Shown in pieces: positions 2,084-63,455 of a stretch of 64,000 nucleotides of DNA (positions are counted from its first letter, which is position 1; the number at the start of each line of letters is the position of its first letter). The notes beneath the pieces are model-generated. The model made no database searches, had not been told where the DNA came from, and saw nothing but the letters and a program-made list of their open reading frames with translations. Made by a program: the position numbers and the translations under genes. The DNA is from Pseudomonas paeninsulae (GTDB taxonomy: Bacteria; Pseudomonadota; Gammaproteobacteria; Pseudomonadales; Pseudomonadaceae): assembly GCF_035621475.1 (NCBI RefSeq), contig NZ_CP141799.1, positions 4,700,501 through 4,764,500 of the forward strand, written 5' to 3'.

Positions 2084-2188
2084 GGATGGCTCCGGGAAGG
2101 AAAGAAATCGTGCGCAGTTTAACCCTTTACGGGCGGTAGCGCCTCCAACCCAGAATGGGTGGAGCGCATACTCGGCATTCGGAACGGC

Positions 2189-2698: not shown

Positions 2699-2760
2699 TC
2701 ACAAATCCGCCAACGCCGTTATCATCGCCCGCTGCCCAGCCAACACGCGCCTATAGCCCC

Positions 2761-3162: not shown

Positions 3163-3176
3163 AGTACCATCCCGCA

Positions 3177-3213
3177 AAAGCCGCCACCAGCCAGGCTGAC
3201 GGCGGCTTTGTTG
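3177..3213 (+). terminator. Intrinsic terminator after the YkgJ-type gene
   Basis: Inverted repeat AAAGCCGCC ... GGCGGCTTT followed by a T-containing run, 15 bases after the stop at 3162. It lies between two convergent genes and probably stops transcription in both directions. Confidence 0.75.
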
Positions 3214-3215
3214 CG

Positions 3216-41855: not shown

Positions 41856-41931
<76 letters not shown>

Positions 41932-41944
41932 TCTAAGCGTTTCA

Positions 41945-42024
41945 TGCAGTGCCAAGCAGTGTCATGAAAACTCCAGAAAGCCCGCCCAGTGCGGGCTTTT
42001 TGCTTTATGCAGTGCCACTCAGTC
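41945..42024. repeat. Direct repeats flanking the tRNA-Thr terminator (possible integrase arm sites)
   Basis: ATGCAGTGCCAAGCAGT (41945) and ATGCAGTGCCACTCAGT (42008) are near-identical direct repeats 63 bases apart. The first is also part of an inverted repeat TTTCATG...CATGAAA (41941-41970). Repeats of this kind beside a tRNA and an integrase are often recombinase arm-type sites. Confidence 0.45.
41977..42003 (+). terminator. Terminator after tRNA-Thr
   Basis: AAAGCCCGC-CCAGT-GCGGGCTTT followed by TT, about 45 bases after the tRNA. Confidence 0.82.
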
Positions 42025-42099
42025 CCACCCAAGCGCTTGCTATTTGAGTGCCCAAATAAGTACCTTTGAGTTGTTCAAAGAATCTTGGGTACTCAGCCT

Positions 42100-46812: not shown

Positions 46813-47883
46813 ATGACCATCTTAGTAACCGGCGGTGCGGGCTTTATCGGGGCGAATTTTGTACTGGATTGGCTGGCGCAGTCGGACGAGCCAGTGATCA
46901 ACCTGGACAAACTGACCTATGCAGGCAACCTTGATAACCTCCGCAGTTTGGCGGGTGATGCGCGGCATGTTTTCGTGCATGGTGATATCGACGACAGCGC
47001 CTTGGTGGCGCGCCTGCTGGCTGAACATCAGCCTCGTGCCATTCTGAATTTTGCCGCCGAGTCTCATGTTGATCGCTCCATCCATGGGCCGGAAGACTTT
47101 ATCGAGACCAATATCGTTGGCACCTTCCGCCTACTGGAGGCGGTACGCGCCTATTGGAAGAGCCTTGCGTCTGACGCGCAGCAGGCGTTTCGCTTTCTGC
47201 ACGTGTCGACCGATGAGGTCTATGGCTCGCTAGGCAAAGATGAGCCGGCGTTCAGTGAACACCATCAGTACGAGCCCAACAGCCCCTATTCGGCGAGCAA
47301 GGCCGCCAGTGATCATCTGGTGCGCGCCTATCATCACACTTACGGCCTGCCGGTGCTGACCACCAATTGCTCGAACAACTACGGCCCCTATCACTTCCCG
47401 GAAAAGCTCATCCCGCTGATGATCGTCAACGCCTTGTCAGGCAAGGCCTTGCCAGTGTACGGCGATGGCCAGCAGATTCGTGACTGGCTGTACGTGAAAG
47501 ACCACTGTAGTGCCATTCGCCGCGTGCTTGAAGCCGGTAGTGTGGGTGAGGTCTATAACGTCGGTGGCTGGAACGAGAAGCCCAATCTGGACATCGTTCA
47601 CACCGTCTGCGCTTTACTGGATGAGTTGCGTCCGCGTGCCGACGGTCAGCCTTATCAGCAGCAGATTACCTACGTGACGGATCGCCCTGGTCATGACCGT
47701 CGTTATGCCATTGATGCCCGCAAACTCGAGCGCGAGTTGGGCTGGAAGCCGGCGGAAACCTTCGAAACCGGTATCCGCAAAACGGTGCAGTGGTATCTGG
47801 ATAACCAGGATTGGGTCAGCAATATCCAGTCTGGCGCTTACCGTGAGTGGGTTGAGAAAAACTACGCCGGGCGCACGGCATGA
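46813..47883 (+). CDS. rmlB: dTDP-glucose 4,6-dehydratase
   Basis: 356 residues, extended SDR. NAD site [17 protein letters not shown], the [11 protein letters not shown] motif, STDEVYG and catalytic Tyr/Lys in [15 protein letters not shown]. Makes dTDP-4-keto-6-deoxyglucose, the second step to dTDP-L-rhamnose. It starts five bases after the glycosyltransferase and overlaps rmlD by four bases. Confidence 0.97.
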
Positions 47884-48776
47884 AAATTCTCTTGTTCGGT
47901 AAAAACGGCCAAGTGGGGTGGGAGTTGCAACGCAGCCTGGCCCCTCTGGGTGAGTTGCTCGCGCTGGACTCCAAAAGCTCGGATCACTGTGGCGACCTGA
48001 ATGACCTAGCGGGGCTGGCTGCCACCGTACAGCGCTTTGCGCCTGACGTTATTGTCAATGCTGCAGCTTATACCGCTGTAGACAAAGCCGAAGCCGAGCA
48101 ACAGCCCGCGCGCAGAATCAATGCCGAGGCGCTAGCGGTGCTGGCCCAGGAGGCGCGGTGCTTGAATGCCTTGTTGGTGCATTACTCCACCGATTATGTG
48201 TTCGCCGGGCATGGCGATACTCCCTGGCAAGAAACCGATCCGGTAGCGCCGTTGAATGTCTACGGTTCCAGTAAGCTGGAAGGCGAACAGGCGATTCAGG
48301 CTTCTGGCTGTTCGCACCTGATCTTTCGCACCAGCTGGGTATATGCCGCGCGGGGCAATAATTTTGCTAAGACCATGCTGCGCCTGGCCCAAGAGCGCGA
48401 CAGTTTGAATGTGATCGACGATCAGTTCGGTGCGCCAACCGGAGCTGAATTGCTGGCCGATGTTACCGCCCATGCCATTCAGGCTGTTCAGCAGCAGCCC
48501 GCGCTGGGCGGGCTCTACCACCTTGCGGCAGCGGGCGAAACCACCTGGTTTCGCTACGCCCAGTTTGTGCTTGAGCAGGCCGATGCGGCGGGTATACACC
48601 TAAGGGTCACCCCGGCAACGCTCGGTGCGGTAGCCACAGAGGCTTACCCTACGCCGGCCAAACGACCAAGCAACTCCCGAATCAATACCCAAAAACTGCA
48701 AAAGGCCTTTGCCCTGAACTTGCCTGAATGGCAAGCCGGTGTGGCACGGATGCTCACAGAAACACTAGAGAAATAA
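47880..48776 (+). CDS. rmlD: dTDP-4-dehydrorhamnose reductase
   Basis: 298 residues. N-terminal [17 protein letters not shown] (NADPH site), [53 protein letters not shown] with catalytic Tyr/Lys and [19 protein letters not shown]. Final reduction to dTDP-L-rhamnose. Overlaps rmlB (ATGA) and is two bases from rmlA. Confidence 0.96.
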
Positions 48777-48778
48777 GC

Positions 48779-49663
48779 ATGCTCAAACGTAAAGGAATCA
48801 TCCTGGCCGGCGGCTCAGGTACTCGTCTGCATCCAGCAACACTGGCCATCTCCAAGCAGTTGCTGCCGGTTTACGACAAACCGATGATCTATTATCCGTT
48901 GACCACCCTCATGTTGGCAGGCATCCGCGACATTCTGATCATCTCCACGCCGCAAGACACTCCGCGTTTCGAACAGCTGTTGGGAGATGGTGGCAATTGG
49001 GGGCTGAACATTTCCTATGCCGTGCAGGCCTCTCCAGATGGCCTGGCGCAAGCCTTCATCATCGGTGAAGATTTCATCGGTAACGATCTGTCGGCCTTGG
49101 TACTCGGTGACAACATTTATCATGGTCATCATTTTAATGAGCTGCTGCAAAGCGCCATGACGCGGCAAGAGGGGGCCAGCGTCTTTGCCTATCACGTCAA
49201 TGATCCCGAGCGTTATGGAGTGGTTGAGTTCGACGGCCAAGGCAAAGCCATTAGCCTGGAAGAAAAACCTCTACAGCCAAAGTCGAACTATGCAGTAACC
49301 GGCCTTTATTTCTACGATCAGCAAGTGGTCGAAATTGCCAAAAGCATCGAGCCGTCGCCTCGTGGCGAGCTGGAAATTACTGATCTGAACCGTGTTTATT
49401 TGGAGCAAGGCAATCTATCGGTAGAAATCATGGGCCGTGGCTACGCCTGGCTCGATACCGGTACCCACGACTCACTGCTCGAAGCCAGTCATTTCATCGC
49501 CACGCTTGAGCACCGCCAGGGCCTTAAAGTCGCTTGCCCTGAAGAGGTCGCCTTTCGGCAAAAATGGATCAGCGCCGAGCAGCTTGAAAAACTTGCAACA
49601 CCACTCTTGAAAAATGGCTACGGCCAATACCTTAAACGCCTCCTGCAAGAGACGATTTACTAA
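48779..49663 (+). CDS. rmlA: Glucose-1-phosphate thymidylyltransferase
   Basis: 294 residues from the ATG at 48779 ([36 protein letters not shown]), the nucleotidyltransferase signature. Also [11 protein letters not shown] and [32 protein letters not shown]. First committed step to dTDP-rhamnose, feedback-inhibited by the product in the family. Its stop overlaps the rmlC start (TAATG). Confidence 0.97.
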
Positions 49664-50205
49664 TGAAAGCCACACCGTTAGCTATTTCTGACGTCGTGCT
49701 ATTTGAGCCCAAGGTGTTTGGCGACGAACGTGGATTTTTCTTTGAGAGCTTCAATCATCTCCAATTTGAGGAAGTTATTGGCCGCACTGTGCAATTCGTA
49801 CAGGACAATCATTCACGTTCAGCCAAAGGCGTGCTGCGTGGTCTGCATTACCAGATCCAGCAACCCCAGGGGAAACTGGTGCGCGTAGTGCAAGGCGAAG
49901 TTTTCGACGTAGCGGTGGATGTTCGCAAAAAATCGCCGACCTTTGGCCAGTGGGTTGGGGCGTATCTGAGTGCCGAAAATAAGCACCAGCTCTGGGTGCC
50001 TGAAGGGTTTGCACATGGTTTTGTCGTGCTCTCGGAGTCAGCCGAGTTTCTGTACAAAACCACGGATTACTACGCACCCACCCATGAGCGCTGCATCAGC
50101 TGGAATGATCCGCAAATCGGCATTCAGTGGCCCTATGAAGGTACGCCGGCATTGTCGACCAAAGACAGCGAAGGCAAGCTCCTTGCCGATGCAGACGTGT
50201 TCTAA
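49663..50205 (+). CDS. rmlC: dTDP-4-dehydrorhamnose 3,5-epimerase
   Basis: 180 residues, cupin fold. DERGFFFESFNHLQF, VQDNHSRSAKGVLRGLHYQ (active-site His) and WVPEGFAHGFVVLSESAEFLYKTTDYY. Completes RmlBDAC, so the cell can make dTDP-L-rhamnose from this locus alone. Confidence 0.97.
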   Translation: MKATPLAISDVVLFEPKVFGDERGFFFESFNHLQFEEVIGRTVQFVQDNHSRSAKGVLRGLHYQIQQPQGKLVRVVQGEVFDVAVDVRKKSPTFGQWVGAYLSAENKHQLWVPEGFAHGFVVLSESAEFLYKTTDYYAPTHERCISWNDPQIGIQWPYEGTPALSTKDSEGKLLADADVF

Positions 50206-50287: not shown

Positions 50288-51745
50288 ATGTCTCAAACAG
50301 AAACGCTTGCCCCGGCAGAGGCTTTTGCATTGGCGATGACGCCTATGCGAGAAGGCCGCTGGGCTGATGCCGCAGCCCTATGGCGGGTCTTCAGGGAGCA
50401 ATATAAAGGACATCTCGCCCCCTGGTTACAGGGTGCTACCAGTTATATGCGTCAGGGGCACTACACCCAGGCCGACGAACTGCTGGCCCATGCGCGAATA
50501 AACTTTGCACAACATGCCGGCAGCTGGCTGCTCAGCGCAGAGTCAGCGCGACTGCAGGGCAGCCTCGCTCTCGAAGAGCGCTACCTGGCTCAAGGTCGGG
50601 AAGCGCTGGGCAATCACTGGGAGTTGTTCAGCCATTCGGCAGCGCTTGAATTGCGCCTAGGGCGTATTCAGCAAGCCGAGGCGTTCAATGGCACAGCCCG
50701 TGAACTGACCGCAGAGCGCATTGAACCCTGGGTTCAATTTGCTGAAATAGCGGAAAAGCAAGGCAACTGGGAGCAAGCCAAACAACGCTGGCAAGCAGTG
50801 ATCGACCTGCGGCCTGACTTTACCCGCGGCTATAGCCAAATCGCTAATGCCTTTAAACAACTGGGCAGCCCGGCGGACGCTCGGCGTTATCGTCTGGCCG
50901 CGCAATACGGGCCAGATCTGCTGCAGCTACCTGTGGTCGTGGCACAAACGGATACAGACCCAAAAAAAGATAAAAGCCGCCTTAAGCATTTTCTGCAGTT
51001 GGTGAATACCAAAGCCATTCTTAATTTGAAGTCTGAGTCGGCACGCACCCACCTGAACTATGCCTGGGTCATTATTGAACCCTTGCTGCATCTGATTATT
51101 TACTACGTTCTGTTTGGCCGGTTGTTAAATACCGGTGTGGAAAACTACGGCCTTTTCCTGCTCAGTGGGCTGGTGCCCTGGATGTGGTTCAACAAGGCGG
51201 TAGCGACCAGTGCCACCAGCATTATCGGCGGACAAGGTTTGATGGTGAACAGCAACGTCAGGCCAGAGTTCTTCCCTTTGGTAAGCATCGTTCAGTCCAC
51301 ATACAAGCAACTGCCCGCACTGCTGCTGTTGCTATTGCTCGGATTGGTAACTGACGAAAAGAGCATGAGCTGGAGTTTGCTGTATTTGCCATTGATCATT
51401 GCCGTCCAGTTTTTGCTGACCGTAACCCTTGGCATGCTGCTGGCGGCGATCCTTCCTTTTGCCCGTGATCTAGCCAACCTGATTGGCACTGGCATGACCC
51501 TGCTGATGTTTATGTCCGGGGTGATCTACAACTACCAGGCCTTGCCCGGCACCATTGGCCAATGGCTGCAATACAACCCATTGACCCAGCTGATAGCCGC
51601 GTATCGCGATGTCATCCTGCAGGGCAGCACCCCCGATTTTCTCGGCCTGGGATATGTGGCTGTTTTTGCTGCGGGGGTTGGCCTGTTGAATGGGCTCATC
51701 TACAGCAAGCATCGGCGCAATTTTGTACGCAGAGGCATGGCCTGA
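50288..51745 (+). CDS. TPR domain fused to an ABC-2 polysaccharide-export permease (Wzm-like)
   Basis: 485 residues in two parts. Residues 1 to about 225 are helical repeats with TPR spacing (MREGRWADAAALWRVF, MRQGHYTQADELLAHA, EKQGNWEQAKQRWQAVIDLRPDFTRGYSQIANAF). Residues about 235-485 are a Wzm-type ABC-2 permease with six membrane helices (LNYAWVIIEPLLHLIIYYVLFGRLLNTG, GLVPWMWFNKAVATSATSIIGGQGLM, FMSGVIYNYQALPGTIGQWLQYNPLTQLIAAYRDVIL). Wzm proteins are normally about 260 residues with no TPR part. It exports lipid-linked O-polysaccharide with the ATPase encoded next; the genes overlap (TGATG). Confidence 0.88.
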   Translation: MSQTETLAPAEAFALAMTPMREGRWADAAALWRVFREQYKGHLAPWLQGATSYMRQGHYTQADELLAHARINFAQHAGSWLLSAESARLQGSLALEERYLAQGREALGNHWELFSHSAALELRLGRIQQAEAFNGTARELTAERIEPWVQFAEIAEKQGNWEQAKQRWQAVIDLRPDFTRGYSQIANAFKQLGSPADARRYRLAAQYGPDLLQLPVVVAQTDTDPKKDKSRLKHFLQLVNTKAILNLKSESARTHLNYAWVIIEPLLHLIIYYVLFGRLLNTGVENYGLFLLSGLVPWMWFNKAVATSATSIIGGQGLMVNSNVRPEFFPLVSIVQSTYKQLPALLLLLLLGLVTDEKSMSWSLLYLPLIIAVQFLLTVTLGMLLAAILPFARDLANLIGTGMTLLMFMSGVIYNYQALPGTIGQWLQYNPLTQLIAAYRDVILQGSTPDFLGLGYVAVFAAGVGLLNGLIYSKHRRNFVRRGMA

Positions 51746-52443
51746 TGTCCAGAGTGGTCTTGTCGCTAAGCGACGTAGGTGTACGCTTTAAAATGACCGG
51801 CGCGGCAAGCAAGACCGGGGTTTTTGAACCGCTGAAAAACATCAATCTTGACATCTATGCCGGAGAAACCCTCGGCGTTCTCGGTGCTAATGGCGCCGGG
51901 AAGTCCACTTTACTGAGAATAATTTCCGGCGCCTTGAAGCCCGACTCCGGTCGGGTGATCAATCACGGGGCATCCGTGTCGCTACTCGCATTGCAGGCCG
52001 GGTTTGATAGCAATTTGACCGGCCGCGACAATGCCATCTTCGGCGGCATGTTACTGGGGCATCCTAGAAAGCAGGTCCTACAGCGGCTGGAGCAGGTCAA
52101 GGAGTATTCAGAGCTTGGTGACTTCTTCGATGAACCTGTGCGCAACTACTCAACCGGCATGGCGGCCCGGCTAGGGTTTGCCATCAGCACGGTGATCAGC
52201 CCGGATATATTGCTGGTGGATGAAGTATTAAGTGTGGGCGATGCGCACTTTAAGAAAAAAGCCGAACGCACCATGATGGAAAAAATAGCCTCGGGGCAAA
52301 CCGTTGTCCTGGTTTCTCATTCGCGCGGCCAGATCGCTAACCTATGTGATCGATGTGTGATATTGAATCAGGGCGATTTGATTCAAGGCGCCACGATGGA
52401 CGACACGCTGACGCAGTATGACCAGATCATGATGAATAAATAA
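51745..52443 (+). CDS. Polysaccharide-export ABC ATPase (Wzt-like, short form)
   Basis: 232 residues. Walker A LGANGAGKSTLLRIISG, QAGFDSNLTGRDNAIFGGMLLG (Q-loop region of Wzt/KpsT proteins), signature VRNYSTGMAARLGFAISTV and Walker B PDILLVDEVLSVGDAHFKKKAER. The C-terminal carbohydrate-binding domain that lets some Wzt proteins read a terminal chain modification is absent, so export should not depend on an end cap seen by this protein. Translationally coupled to the TPR-Wzm gene. Confidence 0.92.
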   Translation: MSRVVLSLSDVGVRFKMTGAASKTGVFEPLKNINLDIYAGETLGVLGANGAGKSTLLRIISGALKPDSGRVINHGASVSLLALQAGFDSNLTGRDNAIFGGMLLGHPRKQVLQRLEQVKEYSELGDFFDEPVRNYSTGMAARLGFAISTVISPDILLVDEVLSVGDAHFKKKAERTMMEKIASGQTVVLVSHSRGQIANLCDRCVILNQGDLIQGATMDDTLTQYDQIMMNK

Positions 52444-53047: not shown

Positions 53048-54319
53048 ATGATTTTTTTCGACCAGTTAAAAAACAGACTGATGTACCCTGTAGCGTTGAT
53101 GTACATTTCTTGGCAGTCAAAGGTAAGCTGGCTGAAGAGTATTGGTAAAAAAGATCAAGTACGATTTTCTGAGCCCTATGCTGGGCAGAAAATCATGTTG
53201 ATGGCGCTGTATGAAAAAGGACGGATTCGTGAAGACGTCGTCGCCGCCATGGCCGCTGCCAGAGCGCTGGGTATTTATGTTATCGGTGTCAATACGCTGA
53301 AGCTTGGGACACCAGACGACTACCGCCACTGCATGGACTGCTATATAGAGCGGTACAACTTTGGCCGAGATTTCGGTAGCTATAAGTCAGGCTTTGGATA
53401 CATCTACTCAAATGGTTTAGCCGAGACCTGCCCTTGCCTTTTGATGATTAACGACAGTGTATTTTTTAGTAAAAAACACATCTCAACGTTTCTCGAAAAC
53501 ATGCTAACAGGCACTGTTGAGGTGCTTGGCAGCACCGAGAACTTCGAAATAGAACATCATTTGGGTTCATTTTGTATCGCCATAACTAATCCCGTACTCA
53601 ATAATGAAAAGCTTAAAAAGTATTGGCGGCGTTACACCTGTACTGATGTGCGCCCGGTGGTGATCAAGACCGGGGAGATGGAGCTATCTAAGACACTTAA
53701 AAAAATCGTCAGCTCCTCAGATAGCTTTCGATCGTTATATGATACGGCGCATGTTGCCGATTTACTGCAATCAAACCCTGATTTACTTGATCTGGTGGCT
53801 CAGCTGTCAAGGCGTTCTGATTCAGTCGGTTGGCCGAGGTTCTCGTTTGCAGCGGTGTCTAAGAATATAGTTGCCGGCTACTTTCACAGCTCGGCTGCAA
53901 GCTTGGGCGTTGGAGTGAATGTAGATCTTAACGATATTTCGACAGTCGCTTTGCACTACGCGAATTCGGTTAGTCAGTTTCAAACTTTTTTGCACCAAAC
54001 AATTGCTAATGTGCAGGACGTAGACTCCAGCCTGGAAGTGGTGATAAAGGATGAAGTAATTTCACACTTTCTCGATTGTTTTACTCGAGGTTCGCAAATA
54101 CACCAGAATAATGTCATTTTGCACAAGATAGGCCTGTCTATCATCAAGCTGGATGGCGTTTATCGTGGGATGTTTAACACCCGCGATGTGGAAAAAATAA
54201 CAGAAGATCTAGACGTGGATCAGCAAGAAGTATTCCGCCGCATCATGTACTCTCGGCCATTTGGTAGCGCTGTGTTGTTCGGCTGGAGGCGGGCAGCGTT
54301 TGAGCGAGGGCTTATATAG
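53048..54319 (+). CDS. RgpF-like rhamnan-synthesis glycosyltransferase
   Basis: 423 residues. The central block YNFGRDFGSYKSGFGYIYSNG ... LLMINDSVFFSKKHI ... HHLGSFCIAI is the hallmark of the rhamnan synthesis F (RgpF) family, which adds rhamnose or other sugars in polyrhamnose polymers. The N-terminal part resembles the usual family start (QKIMLMALYEKGRIREDVVAAMAAARALG). No membrane helices. AT-rich compared with rmlBDAC, so it probably came from another source. Acceptor and linkage unknown. Confidence 0.85.
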   Translation: MIFFDQLKNRLMYPVALMYISWQSKVSWLKSIGKKDQVRFSEPYAGQKIMLMALYEKGRIREDVVAAMAAARALGIYVIGVNTLKLGTPDDYRHCMDCYIERYNFGRDFGSYKSGFGYIYSNGLAETCPCLLMINDSVFFSKKHISTFLENMLTGTVEVLGSTENFEIEHHLGSFCIAITNPVLNNEKLKKYWRRYTCTDVRPVVIKTGEMELSKTLKKIVSSSDSFRSLYDTAHVADLLQSNPDLLDLVAQLSRRSDSVGWPRFSFAAVSKNIVAGYFHSSAASLGVGVNVDLNDISTVALHYANSVSQFQTFLHQTIANVQDVDSSLEVVIKDEVISHFLDCFTRGSQIHQNNVILHKIGLSIIKLDGVYRGMFNTRDVEKITEDLDVDQQEVFRRIMYSRPFGSAVLFGWRRAAFERGLI

Positions 54320-54389
54320 GCCATCTGGTGACTAATAGTTTACGGTCAAGAGTTTAGTTGTTATTTTTTCATGCTTCATGAGGTGTATT

Positions 54390-55307
54390 GTGAGTAAAGA
54401 GTTAGTGAATAAAGGTATTTCAATAATTGGCGCTCATGATGAAAGAAAAATACCCGTAGTGGTCGTAGGTGCCGCCCGTGGTGGTACCTCTATGGTGGCT
54501 GGGGCTCTAGCAAAGCTCGGGGTGTTCATGGGTGACCAAGCGAGCCCTCCTGTTTTTGAGGATGTGCGGTTGTCAGAAAAATTTGAATCTAAAGATTATA
54601 TTGAGGCTGGTAATATAGTAAGTGAATACTCCAGTAATCATGAGTGTTGGGGATGGAAGCGACCGTCTTCGATTGATTATCTGTCTGATGTGGAGCGTGT
54701 TTTTGAGCGTGTGAGATATGTTTTTATATACAAAGATGTTTTTTCTATTTCTCAGCGAAACGCGATTTCAATGCGAAGTGAAATACTTCCAGGAATGCAG
54801 CGCGCTTTAAATCAGTATGCGGGCACCTTGGTTTTTTTAAGCGAAACCAGCGCCCCAGCAATGTTATTATCTTATGATAAAGTGCTTGCGGACCCTGTTA
54901 ATTTTGTCAATTCACTAGTTGCGTTTTGTAGGCTAATCCCGTCGGCTAATCAAATAAAATCTGCTGTGGACTTTGTCAGGCCAGATCCGCAAGATTACCT
55001 TGAGGCTTCTAGGATAACTAAAGCGCAGGGTTGGGTCGATAAAATATCAAATCGTTCAATATATGGTTGGGCTCGTTATGTGCATAGCGAGGCTCCTGCT
55101 GTTGTTGAGTTTTTTTTGAATGATGTAAGTATTGGGAAGATTATTGCTGATATGCCTCGCGCAGACCTGTTGACTAAATTTAAAAAACCATGTGCATTCG
55201 TTTATGAAATTACAGATGCGCTAGACTTTAAAAGGGGTGATGTGGTGCGCGCTAGAGTCCTGCATGAGGTGAGGGACCTAAACAACTCGCCGCTGATAAT
55301 TGAGTAA
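54390..55307 (+). CDS. Sulfotransferase-like protein with C-terminal GWA domain
   Basis: 305 residues from a GTG start at 54390 with GAGGT six bases upstream; an ATG four codons earlier lacks a ribosome site. The N-terminal P-loop fold begins IPVVVVGAARGGTSMVAGALAKLGVFMG, corresponding to the PAPS 5'-phosphosulfate loop, and VFIYKDVFSISQRNAISM fits the 3'-phosphate region with its Ser. Residues about 225-300 form a GWA-type beta domain (SIYGWARYVHSEAPAVVEFFLNDVSIGKIIADMPRADL). Strongly AT-rich. Predicted to sulfate a glycan; the substrate is inferred from context only. Confidence 0.7.
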   Translation: MSKELVNKGISIIGAHDERKIPVVVVGAARGGTSMVAGALAKLGVFMGDQASPPVFEDVRLSEKFESKDYIEAGNIVSEYSSNHECWGWKRPSSIDYLSDVERVFERVRYVFIYKDVFSISQRNAISMRSEILPGMQRALNQYAGTLVFLSETSAPAMLLSYDKVLADPVNFVNSLVAFCRLIPSANQIKSAVDFVRPDPQDYLEASRITKAQGWVDKISNRSIYGWARYVHSEAPAVVEFFLNDVSIGKIIADMPRADLLTKFKKPCAFVYEITDALDFKRGDVVRARVLHEVRDLNNSPLIIE

Positions 55308-55364
55308 GTCTTGTCGGGGGGTGGGTTGCGAGAGTTCATTCAAAAATATGGCAAGGCGCGCTAC

Positions 55365-55395
55365 AGTCCCCGTTATTAAAGCACGGGGACTTTAT
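55365..55395 (+). terminator. Terminator at the end of the plus-strand polysaccharide operon
   Basis: AGTCCCCGT-N9-ACGGGGACT followed by TTAT, about 60 bases past the sulfotransferase-like gene. No gene is seen from 55308 to the IS at 55492. Confidence 0.75.
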
Positions 55396-55491
55396 CAGTC
55401 TGTGTGAGAACTCTCTGACCAAGCGCTGACAATTAATAGGTACCCAGGCTAAGTGAGAGCCGTTTGTCATTCCGGGAAGGCCAAAAAAGTT

Positions 55492-56523
55492 CCTGATTAC
55501 GCATAAACCTCAGCCAGCTTGAGGAGTCGGTAAGGCATAGGCGGTGTTCTCAGTGCGGCATAGCTGAACCGCTCTATCATGGCACCAAGGTCGAAGCGCC
55601 GGTTGAAGCGGTACTCGAACTCGGCCAGATAGCGCGGAGCATGCTTGAGATCGAACGCATGAAAAGTCCCGGTCAGGGCGTTCTTGACGTTGCCCAGCAG
55701 GGTGTTGACCCACTTGAAGGTCGGATGCTGGGCACTGGCCCGACCACTCCCTGTCACGATGGAAAAATGCTGGCACTCCCGCGCATCGAAAGCCCGGAAA
55801 CACGCAAGACCGTCGCTGAATACGGTACTTCCAGGCGCCACCGACTGTTGCGCGTAACTCCCGATCGCCTTGAGCGTGAAGGCCCGTACACGGCGTAGCT
55901 GCAGATATTGAGGGTGGCCTTCTGCGCTGGTCTGCACCGCCGCGATGAAGGGAACCTTGTTCTCCGAGCCGCGACCGCGCTTTCCCGGCCGCTCACCACC
56001 CAGATAGGCATCATCGACTTCAATGCGACCACTGAGCACCGTGTTCCGTTCGCGCTCGAACATCACCTGCATGATCTTGTGCTTGAGCTGCCAGGCCGTG
56101 TTGTAGCTCACGCCCAGTTCACGCGAGAGCTGCAAGGCCGACAAGCTGTTCTTGCGTTGAGTCAGCAGGTAGATCGCCAGGAGCCAGGTGGTCAGAGGGA
56201 GCTTGGTACTGTCAAAAATCGTCCGCGCGGTCAGCGAGGCCTGATGATGGCAGCGGTTGCACTGATACAGCCGCCGTGCCAATTGGCAGCAGGCGCCCTG
56301 ATGGCCACACTCGGGGCAGATGAAGCCGGCTGGCCAACGTAGCTTGAAGAGCGCTTCGCGACACTGCTCCTCGGTTGCGTAGTGCTTAAGGAAGTTAGTG
56401 AGCGAAAGACCGGGCTGGAATTGAACCTGATTGCGGGCCATGGGACACCTACTGCTGGTTATTCATACAGTTAACCGTAGCAGGGGATTCCAATGAAGCA
56501 ACTGAGCTTGGTACGTAATCAGG
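55492..56523 (-). mobile_element. Complete IS1595-family insertion sequence with 8-bp target duplication
   Basis: 1032 bp bounded by inverted repeats CCTGATTACG / CGTAATCAGG. The eight bases AAAAAGTT occur directly on both sides (55484-55491 and 56524-56531), the target duplication length usual for IS1595 elements. One transposase gene. The right-hand copy of the duplication ends inside the stop codon of the neighbouring gene, whose reading is unchanged. Confidence 0.93.
55497..56441 (-). CDS. IS1595-family transposase
   Basis: 314 residues. N-terminal zinc ribbon with CPECGHQGACCQLARRLYQCNRC, a helix-turn-helix (LSRELGVSYNTAWQLKHKIM) and the DDE/N catalytic core (GRIEVDDAYLGGERPGKRGRG, STVFSDGLACFRAF, HAPRYLAEFEYRFNRRFDL). 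Full length, no frameshift; the stop lies inside the left inverted repeat. AGGTGTCCC precedes the ATG. The element is probably active or only recently inserted. Confidence 0.95.
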   Translation of the reverse strand: MARNQVQFQPGLSLTNFLKHYATEEQCREALFKLRWPAGFICPECGHQGACCQLARRLYQCNRCHHQASLTARTIFDSTKLPLTTWLLAIYLLTQRKNSLSALQLSRELGVSYNTAWQLKHKIMQVMFERERNTVLSGRIEVDDAYLGGERPGKRGRGSENKVPFIAAVQTSAEGHPQYLQLRRVRAFTLKAIGSYAQQSVAPGSTVFSDGLACFRAFDARECQHFSIVTGSGRASAQHPTFKWVNTLLGNVKNALTGTFHAFDLKHAPRYLAEFEYRFNRRFDLGAMIERFSYAALRTPPMPYRLLKLAEVYA

Positions 56524-56529
56524 AAAAAG

Positions 56530-57732
56530 TTATACATCATACAGAGAAGACACATAGTTATAAGCCGTGAAACGATCTTCCTTAGCGCCAAAACTTTTAA
56601 AATGCTTAACTGGATCGGCGCCGGCTGCCAATACATCTCGATTCAGCAATAAATAATGAATCGGATCAAAGGCTTCCTTGGTGGGTTTCAGTTTGCTCGT
56701 ATGCTCTACGAGTGCTTCTTCAAATTTGCTAAGTTTATTTATTTCCTCGAGCGCCATCAGCAGTAAAGTTTCTCTTTGAGGCGTCTTCTTCGCTTTGTTT
56801 TCCTGGTATAAATTTTTGTTTTGTAAAGTACCAGCCTCGAACGGAGGCGTTGTCCTTGCTAGAGTATTCCCTATCATTGTTTTGCACGTCGCCGAGCTTA
56901 ATGTGTATTCGCTTGCGGAAAGGGTGATATTGAATGCCTGAAAAAGTCTATCTGGGTCAGGGGTTTCTCTATGGCTAAGCGTTTCTGGTTGTGCATAAAT
57001 CCAGCGGTCACTAATGCTGGTCGATAGTTTGTCGTTTTTGAAAACGCTATTGATGGCGCGCAGCAAGTCTAATTCGCTTTCGGTTAATGAGCGATTAACG
57101 ACAGAGTTATTAAATTGTTTTTCGAGCGCTACATCTTCGCCAATAATTTCTAGTAGAGTGACTAATAAATTACAGTTGTTGTAATTTATTACCTGCACAT
57201 GAGCGTATTCAGAAATTAGTCCAAAATTGGAGAATTGAGTGATTAGCCTTTCGCTAAACTTCAAAAAATAAATATCATCATACGGCGTTGACAGGCTATG
57301 ACGTTTAATTTCCTGATGGTATTTTGATTGGCAAAGTTCGGCCAGTGGGCGTGTGCAAACAATTATTCCAACTTCTTTTGTGTGTCCTAGCAGAAGCTGA
57401 ATAAGGCATTTAAATCTATCAGGTTCGGCGTCGCTAAAATGCTCGCTTGATATTAGGAGCGAAGACTTTGTCTTGTCAGACTCGTCAATTAAGCTTTTCA
57501 CTAAACGGTTAATGGCTTCCTCTGAGCATAAAGGGACTTGTTCTTTTAGTAGCTGAAAAGCAATGGCTTCGCCATTGCCTGATTGTATCCGTGTAAATTC
57601 GTTGTTTTCATTTAGTACGGGATAGGCAGTATGTGCGAGTTCCTCGTTTCGAGAAAGTACGTCTAAGCAGTTTTGCAGGTAACTAGTTCCAGTCTTATGA
57701 AGTCCGGCGTGTATAAATATCTTGTTGAACAT
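56530..57732 (-). CDS. Sulfotransferase-like P-loop protein
   Basis: 400 residues. The N-terminus KIFIHAGLHKTGTSYLQNCLD is the phosphosulfate-binding loop of bacterial sulfotransferases, and VGIIVCTRPLAELCQSKYHQEIKRH fits the 3'-phosphate site with Arg and Ser. The last 45 residues (FDPIHYLLLNRDVLAAGADPVKHFKSFGAKEDR) match a short repeat-like tail seen in many polysaccharide enzymes. AT-rich. Opposite strand to the main operon and facing cysNC/cysD in the same direction. The TAA stop is shared with the IS target duplication. Sulfate transfer to a glycan is inferred. Confidence 0.7.
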   Translation of the reverse strand: MFNKIFIHAGLHKTGTSYLQNCLDVLSRNEELAHTAYPVLNENNEFTRIQSGNGEAIAFQLLKEQVPLCSEEAINRLVKSLIDESDKTKSSLLISSEHFSDAEPDRFKCLIQLLLGHTKEVGIIVCTRPLAELCQSKYHQEIKRHSLSTPYDDIYFLKFSERLITQFSNFGLISEYAHVQVINYNNCNLLVTLLEIIGEDVALEKQFNNSVVNRSLTESELDLLRAINSVFKNDKLSTSISDRWIYAQPETLSHRETPDPDRLFQAFNITLSASEYTLSSATCKTMIGNTLARTTPPFEAGTLQNKNLYQENKAKKTPQRETLLLMALEEINKLSKFEEALVEHTSKLKPTKEAFDPIHYLLLNRDVLAAGADPVKHFKSFGAKEDRFTAYNYVSSLYDV

Positions 57733-57924
57733 ATGAGTTTTAGTCCGAAAAATTGCTCATTATAACTCCAGAGGTATTCTAATCGTCTAAGTGCGTCGTA
57801 TTGCTTCGCCGTCTGATCGAGTCGCTGTATTGTAATTTATTATTAGGCGCGGGGTTCGCCTTTAGGCTATTGAAACATCTTCTGAAAGATTTGCTTGTTG
57901 TACTGATCTCCCCACCATCGCCTA

Positions 57925-59826
57925 CTATAATATATTCTCGATCTTGTTCAGGATTTTAGTCACGGCAGTATTCGGCTCGCCGTATGCGGTATTAATCTCG
58001 AAGTCTGCTGCAACAGGTGACTCATATGAGCTGCCAACCCCAGATAGGTTCGGCAGCTGCCCAGCGCGAGCTTTTTTGTAGAGCCCTTTCACATCCCGCT
58101 GCTCACAGACTTCCAGAGATGTACTGACGTATATTTCAAGGAAGTTGTCTTCCCCTATGAGTTCTCGCGCCATTTGCCGCTCTCGCCTGAACGGTGAAAT
58201 AAATGCGGTCATCACAATTATACCGGCATCCATCATTAGCTTGGCCACTTCGGCAATGCGTCGAATATTTTCCACACGATCCGCATCGGTAAAGCCGAGG
58301 TCTTTGTTCAGGCCTTGACGCACGTTATCGCCATCCAGGATGTAGGTTCGATAGCCGCGGTTGTGCAGTTCTACTTCCAGTGCGTTGGCGATTGTTGACT
58401 TGCCAGAACCCGACAGACCTGTGAACCAGATCACTTTGCCCTTGTGGGCGTTGAGCTTTTCTCGGTCCACGCGGGTGATGGCGAGCGCCTGTTTGTGCAC
58501 GTTTTGCGCGCGGCGCAGGCTGTGGTTGATCATCCCTGCGGCAACCGTGGCATTGCTTATGCGGTCGACCAGAATGAAACTGCCGAGTGATTTTGCGTGT
58601 TGATAACTGTCAAAAGCCAAGGGTTTACTGATGGCTAAGGTGCAGATGCTGATGTCATTCAGGCTTAGTTGTGTACTGGCCTCGTGGTTAAGGTTGTTGA
58701 TGTTGATTCTGTGCTTGATGTTAGTAACCGATGCTGTTGCCCACTGTGCGGCGAGCTTGATGTCGTAACTGCGGCCGATCAGCCCGGCTTCTTCATTCAT
58801 CCACACCAGTGTTGCTTCAAACTGGTCGGTGGTTTCCAGTGGGCGCTGGCTTGAGGAGAAAATGTCGCCGCGAGATGCATCAATTTCTGTGTCGAGCCTT
58901 AGGGTGATGGCGTCGCCACATGCGGCCATTTGCTGTGGGCCGTCCATGCTAACAATCTCCGCGACTGTGGCGGTGTGCCCTGATTGGGTAACCCGAATTT
59001 CGTCGCCAACCCTCAGTTGACCTTCACTCAAGTAACCACTAAAGCCACGGAACGAGGCGTTGGGGCGGTTTACCCACTGCACATGGAACACCAAACGATC
59101 CGATTTTTGGGTGGTCACTTCGACTGTTTGCAGGTAGCCCATTAATGTCGGCCCCTTGTACCAGGGGGTATTGGCCGAGCGCTCGGTGATGTTGTCGCCC
59201 TTGAGTGCGCTCAGGGGCATAGGTGTAATGCTGGCGAAGCCGAGCGTTTGCGCGAAGTCTTCAAAAGACTGGCAGATCTGGTTGAAAATGCTGGCATCAA
59301 AACTGACTAGATCCATCTTGTTGACGGCTAACGCCACATGGCGGATGCCCATCAGCGAAACAAGGTAGGCGTGGCGCCGGGTTTGGGTCAGAACGCCTTG
59401 CCGGGCATCGACCAGGATGACAGCCATGTCTGCCGTCGAGGTGCCGGTGACCATGTTTCGCGTGTACTGTTCATGACCGGGCGTATCGGCAACGATGAAC
59501 TTGCGTTTGCTGGTCGAGAAGAAGCGATAGGCCACATCGATGGTGATGCCTTGTTCGCGCTCCGCGGACAAGCCATCGACGAGCAAGGCAAAGTCAATGT
59601 CAGGACCTTGGGTGCCATACTTTTTCGATTCGTTTTTTAGTGCTGCCAACTGGTCGTTAGTCAGTTGTTGGGCGTCCCAGAGCAGACGTCCAATCAAGGT
59701 GCTTTTTCCATCATCGACGCTGCCGCAGGTTATGAAACGCAGCAGGTCTTGATTTTTTTGCTGTTCAAGGTAGGCCTCAACCGACGAAGGCTTACTGGCG
59801 GCTGTTGTTTGTGCTTTATGTGTCAT
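57925..59826 (-). CDS. cysNC: Bifunctional sulfate adenylyltransferase GTPase subunit / APS kinase CysNC
   Basis: 633 residues. N-terminal GTPase like EF-Tu: CGSVDDGKSTLIGRLLWD, DTPGHEQYTRNMVTG and VNKMDLVSFD, followed by beta-barrel domains. C-terminal APS kinase from about residue 450: TGLSGSGKSTIANALE, DGDNVRQGLNKDLGF and GIIVMTAFISPFR. With CysD it makes APS and then PAPS, the sulfate donor of sulfotransferases. Coupled to cysD by an ATGA overlap. Lies between a sulfotransferase-like gene and TauE/SafE, which suggests a PAPS supply dedicated to the polysaccharide locus. Confidence 0.96.
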   Translation of the reverse strand: MTHKAQTTAASKPSSVEAYLEQQKNQDLLRFITCGSVDDGKSTLIGRLLWDAQQLTNDQLAALKNESKKYGTQGPDIDFALLVDGLSAEREQGITIDVAYRFFSTSKRKFIVADTPGHEQYTRNMVTGTSTADMAVILVDARQGVLTQTRRHAYLVSLMGIRHVALAVNKMDLVSFDASIFNQICQSFEDFAQTLGFASITPMPLSALKGDNITERSANTPWYKGPTLMGYLQTVEVTTQKSDRLVFHVQWVNRPNASFRGFSGYLSEGQLRVGDEIRVTQSGHTATVAEIVSMDGPQQMAACGDAITLRLDTEIDASRGDIFSSSQRPLETTDQFEATLVWMNEEAGLIGRSYDIKLAAQWATASVTNIKHRININNLNHEASTQLSLNDISICTLAISKPLAFDSYQHAKSLGSFILVDRISNATVAAGMINHSLRRAQNVHKQALAITRVDREKLNAHKGKVIWFTGLSGSGKSTIANALEVELHNRGYRTYILDGDNVRQGLNKDLGFTDADRVENIRRIAEVAKLMMDAGIIVMTAFISPFRRERQMARELIGEDNFLEIYVSTSLEVCEQRDVKGLYKKARAGQLPNLSGVGSSYESPVAADFEINTAYGEPNTAVTKILNKIENIL

Positions 59827-61268
59827 CAGAAATAGCCCTCCTGTTTTTTCTTTTCCATGCTGGCAGAGCTGTCACTGTCTATGGCGCGTCCTTGTCTCTC
59901 GGAGCTATTGGAGCTGAGCAGTTCCAGCAGGATGTCGGCCACGGTGACGGCATTCGACTCTACTGCGCCGGTCAAGGGGTAACAGCCAAGGGTGCGAAAG
60001 CGGATGTTTCTGGCTTCAATCTGCTCGCCTGGCAATAGGCTCATGCGTGCGTCATCAATCATAAGCGTCATGCCGTTACGCACTACGACAGGCCTCTCCT
60101 TGGCAAAGTACAGCGGTACCAGCGGGATGTTTTCCTGGTAGATGTATTGCCAGATATCGAGCTCTGTCCAATTGGATAGCGGAAATACGCGAATGCTATC
60201 GCCCTGGTTTTTGCGCGCGTTGTAGATATTCCACAACTCGGGTCGCTGCTGTTTCGGATTCCAGTGATGGCTCTGGGTGCGGAACGAAAAGATACGTTCC
60301 TTTGCACGCGACTTTTCTTCATCCCTGCGTGCGCCGCCGAACACGACGTCGAATTTGTATTTATCCAGCGCTTGCTTGAGCCCTTCGGTCTTGGTGATAT
60401 CGGTGTGCAGCGCCGAGCCATGATCGAAGGGGTTGATATCTTTGCTAATGGCTTCTGGGTTGATGTGTACCAACAGGTCCATGCCGCTTTCGCGTGCCAT
60501 GAGGTCGCGAAACAAATACATCTCTTTAAACTTCCAGCGCGTGTCCACATGCAGCAGTGGGAAGGGGGGCAACGAAGGGTAAAAGGCCTTGCGCGCTAGG
60601 TGCAGCATCACCGCGCTGTCTTTACCCATGGAGTAAAGCATGGCGGGGTTTTCGGCCTCAGCCACCGCCTCACGAATAATCTGCAAGCTTTCAGCTTCAA
60701 GGCGCTTGAGGTGTGGCGTGCGAACCGTTGATGCATTGACCGCGCCGCAGCGTCTTGTTTCATCTAGTACGGCCGAATAACTCAACAGCCCCAGTTCGAC
60801 ATTGGCGGGTGCGCTGACGTGCCTGCAAGCAACAACCAGTCGACCGCAGGGAAAGATTACAACGGGCTTGGCGATATGTTCTTGCAGGCGTTGCAGTGCG
60901 CTCGCGAACTGTTTCGCGTCTACATCACTGGTACCAAGCGGCAACCAGTAGCGCGCGCCCCTGGCGTCGTTGGCATGCAAAAACTCTTCTCCGCTAGAGG
61001 TGCGGTGCAGCTGAACAAAGAGCACTAATTTACGTTTTGCGCGTGCTTTTTCAATCTCCCACGCCAGGACCGATGGCGTTGGCTGACGCCCTAGCTCATC
61101 GCACAGGTGTTCCGCTGTTAGCTCGGGAGGAAGGAGTTGCAGCTCGTGCAGTCGCCGTTCGGCTGTGCGCTTGGTATCGGCTTGATTGAGTTGATTGAGA
61201 TGGAGAAATGCCAGCTGCGTATCCCACACCACGGGAGCATCCAATCCTAGAAGATCAGGGTTTAACAT
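59826..61268 (-). CDS. cysD: Sulfate adenylyltransferase small subunit CysD with long N-terminal extension
   Basis: 480 residues from the ATG at 61268 (AAGGAAGG ribosome site). Canonical CysD is about 300 residues and corresponds to residues about 186-480: [16 protein letters not shown], the PP-loop [67 protein letters not shown] and the ending [11 protein letters not shown]. The first about 185 residues are extra. They contain a helical part ([33 protein letters not shown]) and a possible alpha/beta part ([36 protein letters not shown]). I do not recognise a family for this extension. Both parts are in one uninterrupted frame. Confidence 0.93.
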
Positions 61269-61350
61269 GAACAGCCTTCCTTGTCGCAATGCGTAATTTA
61301 TTTTGATTTGCTCTGTAAAAAATTATTTTCTCAATCGAGCTTGAATATTT

Positions 61351-61380
61351 TTGACATTAAATCACAATCTGCGACATATT
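61351..61380 (+). promoter_or_regulatory. Possible sigma-70 promoter of the TauE/SafE gene
   Basis: TTGACA at 61351-61356 and CATATT at 61375-61380, 18 bases apart, in the 150-base divergent spacer between cysD and the permease gene. The -10 box is weak. Confidence 0.4.
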
Positions 61381-61418
61381 TTCCCTGGAAAGCTTCCACA
61401 TGACAACTCTGTATCAAC

Positions 61419-62195
61419 ATGATTGATGGTGCCTACACATTGGCAGGTGCCCTGACGGGGTTTGTTGTTGGCCTTACCGGCGTAGGAGGTGGGGCCCTGA
61501 TGATGCCGATTCTGTTGCTGCTGGGTGTGCCTGCGACGACGGCAATTGCCACCGACTTATGGTTTGCCGCCCTCACCAAGGCAGTGGCTGCCAGCATTCA
61601 CAATGGTTCGGCTCAAATAGATTGGGTTGTCGTTAAACGCCTGTGGTTGGGTAGTCTGCCGATGGCGCTATTGGTCGTCGTGTTGGTTAGTTTCGGTGCC
61701 AAAGTACAGAAAGTTGGCTGGTTGACCGAAGCGATAGGCGCCGTCGTTCTGATTACGGCACTGGGTATGCTGCTCGCCCCTGCGTTGAGATTGCTCGCGA
61801 GAGAGCGTCGCCTAGGTAATCCAGGTCACTTCAAGGCATTGCAGCCTGCTTTAACCGTGCTCAGCGGTTTGGTGCTTGGCCTTTGCGTGGCTTTAACATC
61901 GGTTGGTGCTGGTGCGCTGGGGAGTGTGATTCTTCTGTACTTGTATCCACTGCGGATGACACCGCATCGTCTGGTCGCAACAGACATCATGCATGCCATA
62001 CCTCTGGCATTGGTTGCCGGGCTGGGTTACCTGTTTGCCGGCATGGTTGACGGCCATATGTTATTGAGTCTGCTCGTGGGTTCAATTCCGGCTGTCGTGG
62101 TTGGAAGCCTAATGAGTAGACGGCTCAACGGCCGCTGGATACAAGTGTTGCTGGCTTTTGTTTTGCTCTCTGCTGGCATAAAAATGCTTATTTGA
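61419..62195 (+). CDS. TauE/SafE family anion permease
   Basis: 258 residues, about eight membrane helices in two homologous halves: GALTGFVVGLTGVGGGALMMPILLLLGVPATTAIATDL and LSGLVLGLCVALTSVGAGALGSVILLYLYPLRMTPHRLVATDIMHAIPLA. Members move sulfite, sulfate, sulfonates or related anions. No Shine-Dalgarno is evident before the ATG. Divergent from cysD-cysNC, so it probably supplies or removes a sulfur oxyanion for that pathway. Direction and substrate are inferred. Confidence 0.85.
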   Translation: MIDGAYTLAGALTGFVVGLTGVGGGALMMPILLLLGVPATTAIATDLWFAALTKAVAASIHNGSAQIDWVVVKRLWLGSLPMALLVVVLVSFGAKVQKVGWLTEAIGAVVLITALGMLLAPALRLLARERRLGNPGHFKALQPALTVLSGLVLGLCVALTSVGAGALGSVILLYLYPLRMTPHRLVATDIMHAIPLALVAGLGYLFAGMVDGHMLLSLLVGSIPAVVVGSLMSRRLNGRWIQVLLAFVLLSAGIKMLI

Positions 62196-62331
62196 CGGGG
62201 TGTTTAAGCTTTATGCGTACTCACTCGCCCCCTATTACTTGGTCCTCGGGGGAGAGTGCCGATCAGGCTAGGTGCTTAGTGACTGCCATTTTTCGTGAAT
62301 AATGTCAGTCGTTTGTGGTAGATTTACCTGC

Positions 62332-62352
62332 AAATAACAGCCTGTTATTTTT
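62332..62352. repeat. Palindrome AAATAACAG-C-CTGTTATTT
   Basis: A nine-base perfect inverted repeat followed by TTT, in the spacer between the permease and acyltransferase genes. Could end the permease message or serve as an operator for the next gene. Confidence 0.45.
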
Positions 62353-62408
62353 GGATTTGCTGCGCTGGGACAGCCCTTGGGCTGGCCAGGCCTCACGGTA
62401 GAGTTCTT

Positions 62409-63455
62409 ATGAATGGTGTGCAGGCGCTCCGCTTCATAGCGGCCATGATGGTTGTTATCTACCACGTGTCGTTACATTACACTGCGCGCAAAGGCGAGCT
62501 GGACGTGACTTTTTTAAAGTACTTCCTGTATTCGGGTGTTGATATATTTTTCGTGATATCCGGCCTTGTGATATGGGAGAGCACCAATAATAATACGACC
62601 GCAAAAGAGTTTTTCTTAAAAAGAACATGGAGGATCTATTCCGGATACCTTCCAGCGCTTGCCATTTGCGGTCTTTTAATTGCGATTTCGTCAAGCGACA
62701 AGGCAAAATCAGCAATAAGTGTATTACCTTCTATTCTACTTTTGCCAATACCACCTCAAGAGCGCATGCTTGATGTTTCATGGACTCTTACCTATGAGCT
62801 GATTTTCTATATAGCAATGGCAGCTTGCCTACTATTCAAGCGCAGAAGTACCGTGATCGCACTACTACTGGCAGGCGGGATTTATGGTGTTATATCTTCA
62901 TTGGCTGGCGCAAAGCAGGCGAATTTCGCTGCAGGCTACCTGACAAGTCCCCTTCTTTTTGAGTTTGCTATTGGCTGCTTTATCTCTTTTATTTTGAGTA
63001 AGTACAAAACCAAATCTCCTAAAGTGTACGTAGCGGCAGGATTTTCACTGATACTTATGGCTGGGATAGCTGCATTTAAACTCAAATATTTACCCGGCGG
63101 GAAAATTGGAGAGGCTGCAAGAGTGATTGCCTTCGGAGTACCTGCGGCTCTAATCGTTTACGGTTGTGCCTGTCTGCGCGCGCAAGGCACCATCGCTGAC
63201 TCCCTTAAAAGGCTAGGAGATGCCAGCTACGCAATCTATCTTCTGCATATGCCTGTACTTGTATTTACATGGCACGCGCTCCCCGTCGCGGCAAACGTTT
63301 GGTTTTTCTTCAAGAACCTAGAGATCGGAGCGATATTCATAGTTGTGACCACCGTACTACTGAGCCTTGCCTACTACAAATTCATAGAAAGACCACTAAT
63401 TAAAGCCCCGTTCATTTCGCATAAAAAGACCGAACCTACAGTGGTGACGCAGTAG
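62409..63455 (+). CDS. Membrane O-acyltransferase (acyltransferase 3, OafA/YrhL type)
   Basis: 348 residues, about ten membrane helices. MNGVQALRFIAAMMVVIYHVS contains the catalytic His; FFVISGLVIW, FFLKRTWRIY and LKRLGDASYAIYLLHMPVL are standard motifs of the family that O-acetylates or acylates O-antigen, exopolysaccharide or Nod factors. AT-rich relative to the permease gene. Probably decorates the product of this locus. Length normal for the domain without an SGNH extension. Confidence 0.9.
   Translation: MNGVQALRFIAAMMVVIYHVSLHYTARKGELDVTFLKYFLYSGVDIFFVISGLVIWESTNNNTTAKEFFLKRTWRIYSGYLPALAICGLLIAISSSDKAKSAISVLPSILLLPIPPQERMLDVSWTLTYELIFYIAMAACLLFKRRSTVIALLLAGGIYGVISSLAGAKQANFAAGYLTSPLLFEFAIGCFISFILSKYKTKSPKVYVAAGFSLILMAGIAAFKLKYLPGGKIGEAARVIAFGVPAALIVYGCACLRAQGTIADSLKRLGDASYAIYLLHMPVLVFTWHALPVAANVWFFFKNLEIGAIFIVVTTVLLSLAYYKFIERPLIKAPFISHKKTEPTVVTQ

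Follow-up and report, generated by a model that had tools for sequence, protein, structure and literature searches.

The closest described counterparts of the locus studied here are gene clusters for two sulfated capsules whose structures have been solved. The capsule of Vibrio sp. KMM 8419 contains L-Rhap3S4Ac, and its authors present genes for the sulfate donor 3′-phosphoadenosine-5′-phosphosulfate (PAPS) together with sulfotransferases as a hallmark (PMC11641403); that of Cobetia marina KMM 1449 contains L-Rhap2S (PMC11766843). In rhizobia, nodPQ form a second ATP sulfurylase/adenosine-5′-phosphosulfate (APS) kinase set where CysH prefers APS, and an M. loti nodPQ mutant makes no sulfated polysaccharides (PMC6192434). 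RaxP and RaxQ of Xanthomonas oryzae are described as providing the PAPS with which RaxST acts on a secreted peptide (PMC4216712).

Here, we analysed a window of 64,000 nucleotides from the 5.35 Mb genome of Pseudomonas paeninsulae (G000:C1:4700501-4764500; coordinates below are window positions unless a contig such as C1 or a locus such as L085 is named). It contains a cysD-cysNC pair within a rhamnose-polysaccharide cluster, here called the island, beside two sulfotransferase-like genes (ST1 and ST2). The CysD carries an extra N-terminal domain and is referred to as long CysD. The principle of a PAPS supply is already known from nodPQ, raxPQ and the Vibrio and Cobetia capsules; the long CysD is what is new.

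A second sulfate-activation set in a polysaccharide cluster

The sulfate-activation and sulfotransferase-like genes are:

59826-61268, minus strand: long CysD, 480 amino acids, ATP sulfurylase small subunit with an extra N-terminal domain (TIGR02039, 483 bits; cut-off 396.6)
60777..61268, minus strand: N-terminal domain of long CysD, 164 amino acids, conserved in relatives (mean predicted local distance difference test score, pLDDT, 93.3)
57925..59826, minus strand: CysNC, ATP sulfurylase GTPase subunit fused to APS kinase (NF004035, 942 bits; cut-off 715)
54378..55307, plus strand: ST1, with a GAARGGTSMV loop and a C-terminal region with a conserved GWA (PF13469, 22 bits; cut-off 27)
56530..57732, minus strand: ST2, with an HxGxxKTG loop and R128/S136, on the same strand as cysD-cysNC and 192 bp downstream

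The other genes of the cluster are:

45825..46808, plus strand: family 2 glycosyltransferase (PF00535, 50 bits)
46813..50205, plus strand: rmlB, rmlD, rmlA and rmlC for dTDP-L-rhamnose, the second set in the genome (the other lies right of the window, in L085)
50288..52443, plus strand: ATP-binding cassette (ABC) polysaccharide exporter, with ABC-2 permease (50288-51745; PF01061, 47.7 bits) and ABC ATPase (51562-52443; PF00005, 79.4 bits)
53048..54319, plus strand: RgpF-like rhamnan-synthesis protein (PF05045, 22 bits, under the cut-off of 25)
61419..62195, plus strand: TauE/SafE-family permease, divergent from cysD (PF01925, 130.7 bits)
62409..63455, plus strand: membrane O-acyltransferase, Acyl_transf_3 (PF01757, 115.9 bits)

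The original prediction had listed the rml genes, ABC exporter, RgpF-like protein, two sulfotransferase-like proteins, cysD-cysNC, TauE-like permease and acyltransferase. Re-reading the cluster from open reading frames (ORFs) and profile searches placed every one of them where it had been reported, with open frames.

As in the Vibrio and Cobetia clusters, the second cysD-cysNC set lies inside a polysaccharide cluster. The Vibrio cluster also resembles the island in its second cysC, cysN and cysD copies, sulfotransferases, rhamnose operon, RgpF, ABC exporter and acyltransferase, but its cysN and cysC are named separately, and its capsule structure has been solved, whereas the island offers genes alone (PMC11641403). 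The Cobetia cluster shares the cysN/cysC fusion, cysD, a sulfate permease, a sulfotransferase, the rml operon and an ABC exporter; unlike in the island, cysQ belongs to the operon there, and a wcb operon and kps capsule genes with 3-deoxy-D-manno-oct-2-ulosonic acid (Kdo) priming are present (PMC11766843).

The island pair could be a spare set of assimilation genes, serving cysteine synthesis and lying there by chance, since CysD and CysN yield APS whatever becomes of it and might supplement assimilation. We regard this explanation as highly improbable. A search of the genome for further cysD/cysN and cysH genes found a second, canonical cysD and cysNC at C1:4.20 Mb, so the island genes are not its only sulfate-activation genes. 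Three proteins matched PF01507: the canonical CysD (305 amino acids), the island CysD and a single CysH. The latter scored 275.7 bits against APS_reductase (cut-off 235.3) and 131.9 bits against PAPS_reductase (cut-off 254.2), and its best match in the Protein Data Bank (PDB) was a solved adenosine phosphosulfate reductase, 2goy, at 483.8 bits over nearly the whole length, followed by a PAPS reductase at 98 bits. By its sequence, then, CysH is an APS reductase, and cysteine synthesis in this genome would most likely use APS and have no need of PAPS.

The APS-kinase domain of the island CysNC (PF01583, 226.6 bits) has intact DGDN, FISP and KGLYKKAR motifs. With its NF004035 score above the cut-off and its APS-kinase motif residues kept when aligned to solved kinases, the protein qualifies as a bifunctional CysNC. 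PF01583 also matched the housekeeping CysNC at 170.4 bits and, marginally, a third protein at 24.4 bits. The housekeeping CysNC reads DGQN instead of DGDN and FVAP instead of FISP; the solved kinases aligned with it carry D and S at these positions. We compared 62 CysNC proteins linked to long CysDs (from 67 loci, in five of which the contig ends too soon) with 20 housekeeping control loci, 9 with CysNC and 11 with CysN without CysC. The second D of DGDN is kept in 61/62 long-linked proteins (one gap) and is Q in 9/9 housekeeping ones; the S of FISP is kept in 60/62 (two gaps) and is A in 9/9; a K of KGLYKKA is Q in 9/9 and is kept in the long-linked proteins wherever letters exist. Retention of these motifs beside long CysD is a further point against a spare assimilation set. 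Degenerate housekeeping CysNC was seen in L005 at 1429-3378 (the copy of this genome at C1:4.20 Mb) and in L091, L092, L097, L099-L101, L106, L107 and L110.

The housekeeping changes would presumably abolish APS-kinase activity. Taken together with the APS-type CysH, the lost motifs make the intact island CysNC the likely source of PAPS. A separate PAPS factory would be needed because APS is what the host route produces and consumes, and because the APS kinase of the host's CysNC is degenerate. The pattern suggests that Pseudomonas-type genomes with a degenerate housekeeping CysNC may depend on an accessory kinase for any PAPS they make. Among 49 long-CysD genomes, the long-linked kinase was the only APS kinase match in 25; in 12 the sole other kinase was the low-scoring housekeeping copy, 11 had others, and in one the long-linked kinase was not found.

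The long CysD and its N-terminal domain

Translation of the long CysD starts at ATG 61268, preceded by the letters AAGGAAGG. The TIGR02039 match, above its curated cut-off, spans residues 194-487 of the 487-residue frame and leaves an N-terminal extension of ~180 residues. The CysD PP-loop motif, SxGKDS, is kept as SMGKDS. A canonical short CysD (~300 residues) was ruled out by the length of 480 residues and the conserved N-terminal domain; the housekeeping CysD of the same genome has 305.

The N-terminal domain (~165 residues) matched no Pfam or NCBIfam model, yet 533 relatives were found at E<=0.001. All 120 of these that were listed also carry the CysD domain, and most are about 480 residues long; shorter matches to the domain look like fragments. 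Invariant residues in a 56-row alignment include R34, E37, R38, D57, R76, N100, D101, R103 and W108. Predicted alone, the domain gave a confident fold (pLDDT 93.3), for which no convincing relative was found among known structures, an RNase H-like fold being one candidate considered. The Pseudomonas syringae ATP sulfurylase (PDB 1zun), which we take to be a canonical short CysD, is 68% identical to the aligned CysD core but, with 209 aligned columns only, has no match to the N-terminal domain. The nodPQ system resembles the island in being a second sulfate-activation set where the organism's CysH is APS-preferring (PMC6192434), whereas two Sinorhizobium plasmid CysDs (L112 and L113, which may or may not be NodP) are short and leave no room for an extra domain.

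Long CysD is rare within the genus: of 398 Pseudomonas genomes, 12 have it. When 84,980 species, each represented by one genome, were scanned with two patterns, at least 60 long-CysD loci emerged, most of which belong, judging by their titles, to Beta- and Gammaproteobacteria. In 58 of 61 long-CysD loci, counting the window, CysNC is present, and its gene usually follows cysD immediately; in the window, the cysNC start and cysD stop overlap by one base. A branch with support 100/99 separates long CysDs from 20 housekeeping CysDs, and in a rapidly built tree the cores of long CysDs adjoin short plasmid-borne alphaproteobacterial CysDs. Near the latter lie an annotated sulfotransferase in L112 (Sinorhizobium) and L116 (Azospirillum) and cysQ in L115 (Sphingobium). 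One metagenome bin (L051) holds two long-CysD copies ~6 kb apart, and in L029, L060 and L082 a protein of ~460-475 residues, FAD/NAD(P)-binding by eye, is encoded between long cysD and cysNC.

The domain is fused to CysD, and the CysNC next to it nearly always has its kinase motifs intact. From this distribution we tentatively propose, as a doubtful but possible role, that long CysD acts as an ATP sulfurylase committed to PAPS. Its N-terminal domain would dock either the kinase domain or a sulfotransferase and channel APS to PAPS, shielding APS from APS reductase.

Company of long CysD in other genomes

We counted sulfotransferases near CysD in 43 genomes searched with all three sulfotransferase Pfams, one genome per species; contigs of many metagenome bins end near the genes. 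A match within 25 kb of long CysD was found in 19/43 genomes, with 24 distinct matches of the 66 in those genomes (26 pairs, as two long copies in G433 share the same two matches). Around other CysDs the figure was 2/36 genomes, with 2 matches for 39 copies, and one of those two copies, G421:C49, adjoins a high-scoring APS kinase. Three copies in frames of 467-479 residues, which have no N-terminal-domain locus, and one of 385 residues were counted as short, and three genus handles repeating genomes of named loci at the same coordinates were counted once. Centred on the kinase, a sulfotransferase lay within 25 kb of 27/50 long-linked, 10/15 other and 0/18 housekeeping matches. Outside this count are six genomes searched with PF13469 only (G434, with two matches on a short contig, and G399, G424, G427, G431 and G432, with none) and seven searched with the other two Pfams only. 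The latter are G381, which is without long CysD, and G078, G165, G197, G259, G277 and G374, each with a sulfotransferase match within 14 kb of long CysD.

The neighbourhoods of long and canonical CysDs were compared in 17 isolates, with the window and its genome's canonical locus kept outside the count and L012 and L033, with their canonical partners, dropped since the first ORF call lost CysD there. A simple caller supplied the ORFs, of which some are possibly spurious. The 25 commonest families were listed, of 132 near long and 94 near canonical CysD. Among the 103 ORFs near long CysD, the leading families were glycosyltransferases, nucleotide-sugar dehydratases/epimerases, TauE and Inositol_P (GT2 9, epimerase 7, TauE 7, Inositol_P 5, Sulfotransfer_3 3; sugar-dehydratase families overlap on the same proteins). 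Near canonical CysD (117 ORFs), sulfite reductase and the CysH domain headed the list with 9 ORFs each, thus at most about half of the loci, and TauE had 3. Neither CysH nor sulfite reductase is among the 25 families listed near long CysD, which again argues against a spare set for cysteine. Over all 61 long-CysD loci, window included, an Inositol_P-family cluster occurs in 15 and a TauE cluster in 14; we read the Inositol_P matches as CysQ-type.

Another CysD is present in 42/49 long-CysD genomes, and seven have long CysD only. No APS_reductase match was found in these seven, and PF01507 finds nothing further in them except a 29.7-bit match in G408. Six are metagenome bins and may be incomplete; one is an isolate, Zwartia hollandica (L037). 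They look like natural cases of a PAPS module without assimilation, and a long module without a clear CysH speaks against a spare set. The original prediction had suggested a dedicated sulfate-donor supply. This is well supported as the best reading of the island cysD-cysNC, given the second cysD-cysNC set, the APS-type CysH, the degenerate housekeeping kinase, the enrichment of sulfotransferases near long CysD and the contrasting neighbourhoods.

Sulfotransferase-like proteins, island borders and a model of the locus

Both phosphosulfate-loop motifs quoted in the original prediction are present in ST1 and ST2. Profile searches gave the sulfotransferase assignment less backing, as ST1 stayed under the PF13469 cut-off and ST2 had no Pfam match at E 0.01; thresholded Pfam searches miss proteins this divergent. 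Of 123 ST1 homologues, the best 120 (window's own included) all keep G27, R30, G32 and S34 of the 5′-phosphosulfate loop, and 59 of these 120 carry a precomputed PF13469 match. In ST2, K13-T14-G15, R128 and S136 are kept in 5/5 aligned proteins. The Arg-Ser pair is eight residues apart, the spacing of the classical sulfotransferase pair. By eye only, a GWA-type segment was seen both in 52456-52926 and in the C-terminal third of ST1; it is possibly a small domain common to polysaccharide loci. The ABC-2 permease has an unusual-looking, in-frame, tetratricopeptide-repeat-like N-terminal region of ~200 residues.

Stutzerimonas urumqiensis (L044) holds the same set together: ST1 (87% identical; PF13469, 24.9 bits), ST2 (49%; PF00685, 13.4 bits, cut-off 22), the RgpF-like protein (57%; PF05045, 30.8 bits) and, adjoining ST1/ST2, a long cysD-cysNC pair (67%/73%). 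The recurrence of this gene set argues for co-occurrence beyond chance. The orientation of ST2 is reversed relative to the window. The unequal identities of ST1, ST2 and cysD-cysNC suggest that sulfotransferase and PAPS module joined more than once or exchanged partners.

The left border and the mobile features are:

41856..43103, plus strand: tRNA-Thr (41856-41931; left island junction) and an apparently split integrase (42085-43103; second piece recognised by eye only)
43497-44738: HipA-type gene inside the island, beside the split integrase (PF07804, PF13657)
55490..56525, minus strand: IS1595-family insertion sequence between ST1 and ST2 (NF033547, 200 bits; transposase 55497-56441; inverted repeats 55490-55513 and 56502-56525)

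Beyond the tRNA-Thr, G+C drops from about 60-68% to about 45-57%. The same-species genome G381 is 95% identical to the window and collinear only to about 41932 on the left; on the right, 94-96% identity resumes at L085:2959 (C1:4766959), a point within the other rmlB, right of the window. Between these points lie ~24.5 kb here and ~100 kb of different DNA in G381. Because collinearity breaks in this way, the whole cluster, with its second rml set, is an island in a variable site. The original prediction had not mentioned the IS1595 element, the CysD N-terminal extension, the split integrase at tRNA-Thr or the island status. In G381, a CysC-like frame stands on its own ~7 kb from a Sulfotransfer_1 match (C1:4009942-4018234), and a second, broken CysC-like stretch lies close to three Sulfotransfer_2 matches (C1:1806320-1820920). 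From these pairs, same-species strains may be swapping different sulfation cassettes.

An integrase in two frames, an insertion sequence between ST1 and ST2 and the unusual ST1 motif are what a decaying relic with inactive sulfotransferases might show. However, every pathway gene has an open frame, the motifs of the cys genes are intact, the insertion sequence sits between genes, and ST1 is 87% identical to the Stutzerimonas copy, which makes decay a very improbable account of the island.

We consider it likely that the stretch is a horizontally acquired surface-polysaccharide island of ~24.5 kb at tRNA-Thr, missing from G381, with its own PAPS factory sulfating a rhamnose-containing glycan that is exported by the ABC system. 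Long CysD and the N part of CysNC would convert sulfate and ATP to APS, which the intact C part of CysNC would phosphorylate to PAPS. ST2, and probably ST1, would spend PAPS in the cytoplasm to sulfate this glycan, which the GT2 and RgpF-like proteins would build, before the ABC exporter moves it out. The TauE-type permease, a possible sulfate/sulfite transporter, may move sulfate, and the acyltransferase may add O-acyl groups. We infer the catalytic activities and their loss, sulfate transfer by ST1 and ST2, the acceptor, the transporter substrate and the step order.

The rhamnose glycan is a plausible acceptor, from gene content and by analogy with the Vibrio and Cobetia capsules. A PAPS module that is real and dedicated could also serve sulfotransferases acting on a peptide, lipid or small molecule. 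RaxP and RaxQ supply PAPS to RaxST by a comparable ATP sulfurylase and APS kinase, although in a peptide route with type I secretion and not for a glycan (PMC4216712). Here, however, the cys genes lie inside a glycan cluster, long CysD adjoins glycan genes in other genomes too, and two similar clusters belong to solved sulfated rhamnose capsules (PMC11641403, PMC11766843); a non-glycan acceptor thus seems unlikely to us, although no search aimed at a small peptide gene was made.

Several observations weigh against the model of a sulfated rhamnose glycan with a dedicated donor supply, beginning with the acceptor, which in the island is deduced rather than identified. CysH also passes two broader models, NF002537 (279.6 bits; cut-off 154) and TIGR00434 (167.9; cut-off 165.1), one of them named phosphoadenylyl-sulfate reductase. 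An APS-type CysH is not universal, as 38/50 genomes match APS_reductase (32 over the cut-off) and 12/50 have no match; seven of these 12 are the long-CysD-only genomes, and G078, G426, G430 and G438 hold another PF01507 protein at 95-97 bits. The classical sulfotransferase 3′-phosphate loop carries Ser, where ST1 has Arg, as do all 120 of the 123 homologues that were listed. Neither ST1 nor ST2 reaches any sulfotransferase Pfam cut-off, and the genome has no match to any of the three Pfams. No such match lies within 25 kb of long CysD in 24/43 long-CysD genomes, nor anywhere in 9/43. Sulfotransferase-like frames, below cut-off or by motif, do occur near long CysD in four of these nine (G000, which is the genome studied here, G422, G426 and G429), and none were seen there in G408, G437, G438, G444 and G445. 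Finally, no CysQ-type gene adjoins the window's cysD.

On balance, the cell probably decorates its surface sugar coat, whether O-antigen, capsule or exopolysaccharide, with sulfate. The sulfated surface-sugar clusters found described in the literature are marine or rhizobial. Long CysD beside an intact CysNC offers a marker by which candidate sulfated-glycan producers among beta- and gammaproteobacteria can be listed. In many marker-bearing genomes the organism's own sulfur assimilation appears to use APS. The extra domain poses a biochemical question, namely how APS is kept for sulfation while APS reductase competes for it. If the proposed channelling is true, two pathways would share one cytoplasmic intermediate by a new mechanism that has spread laterally.

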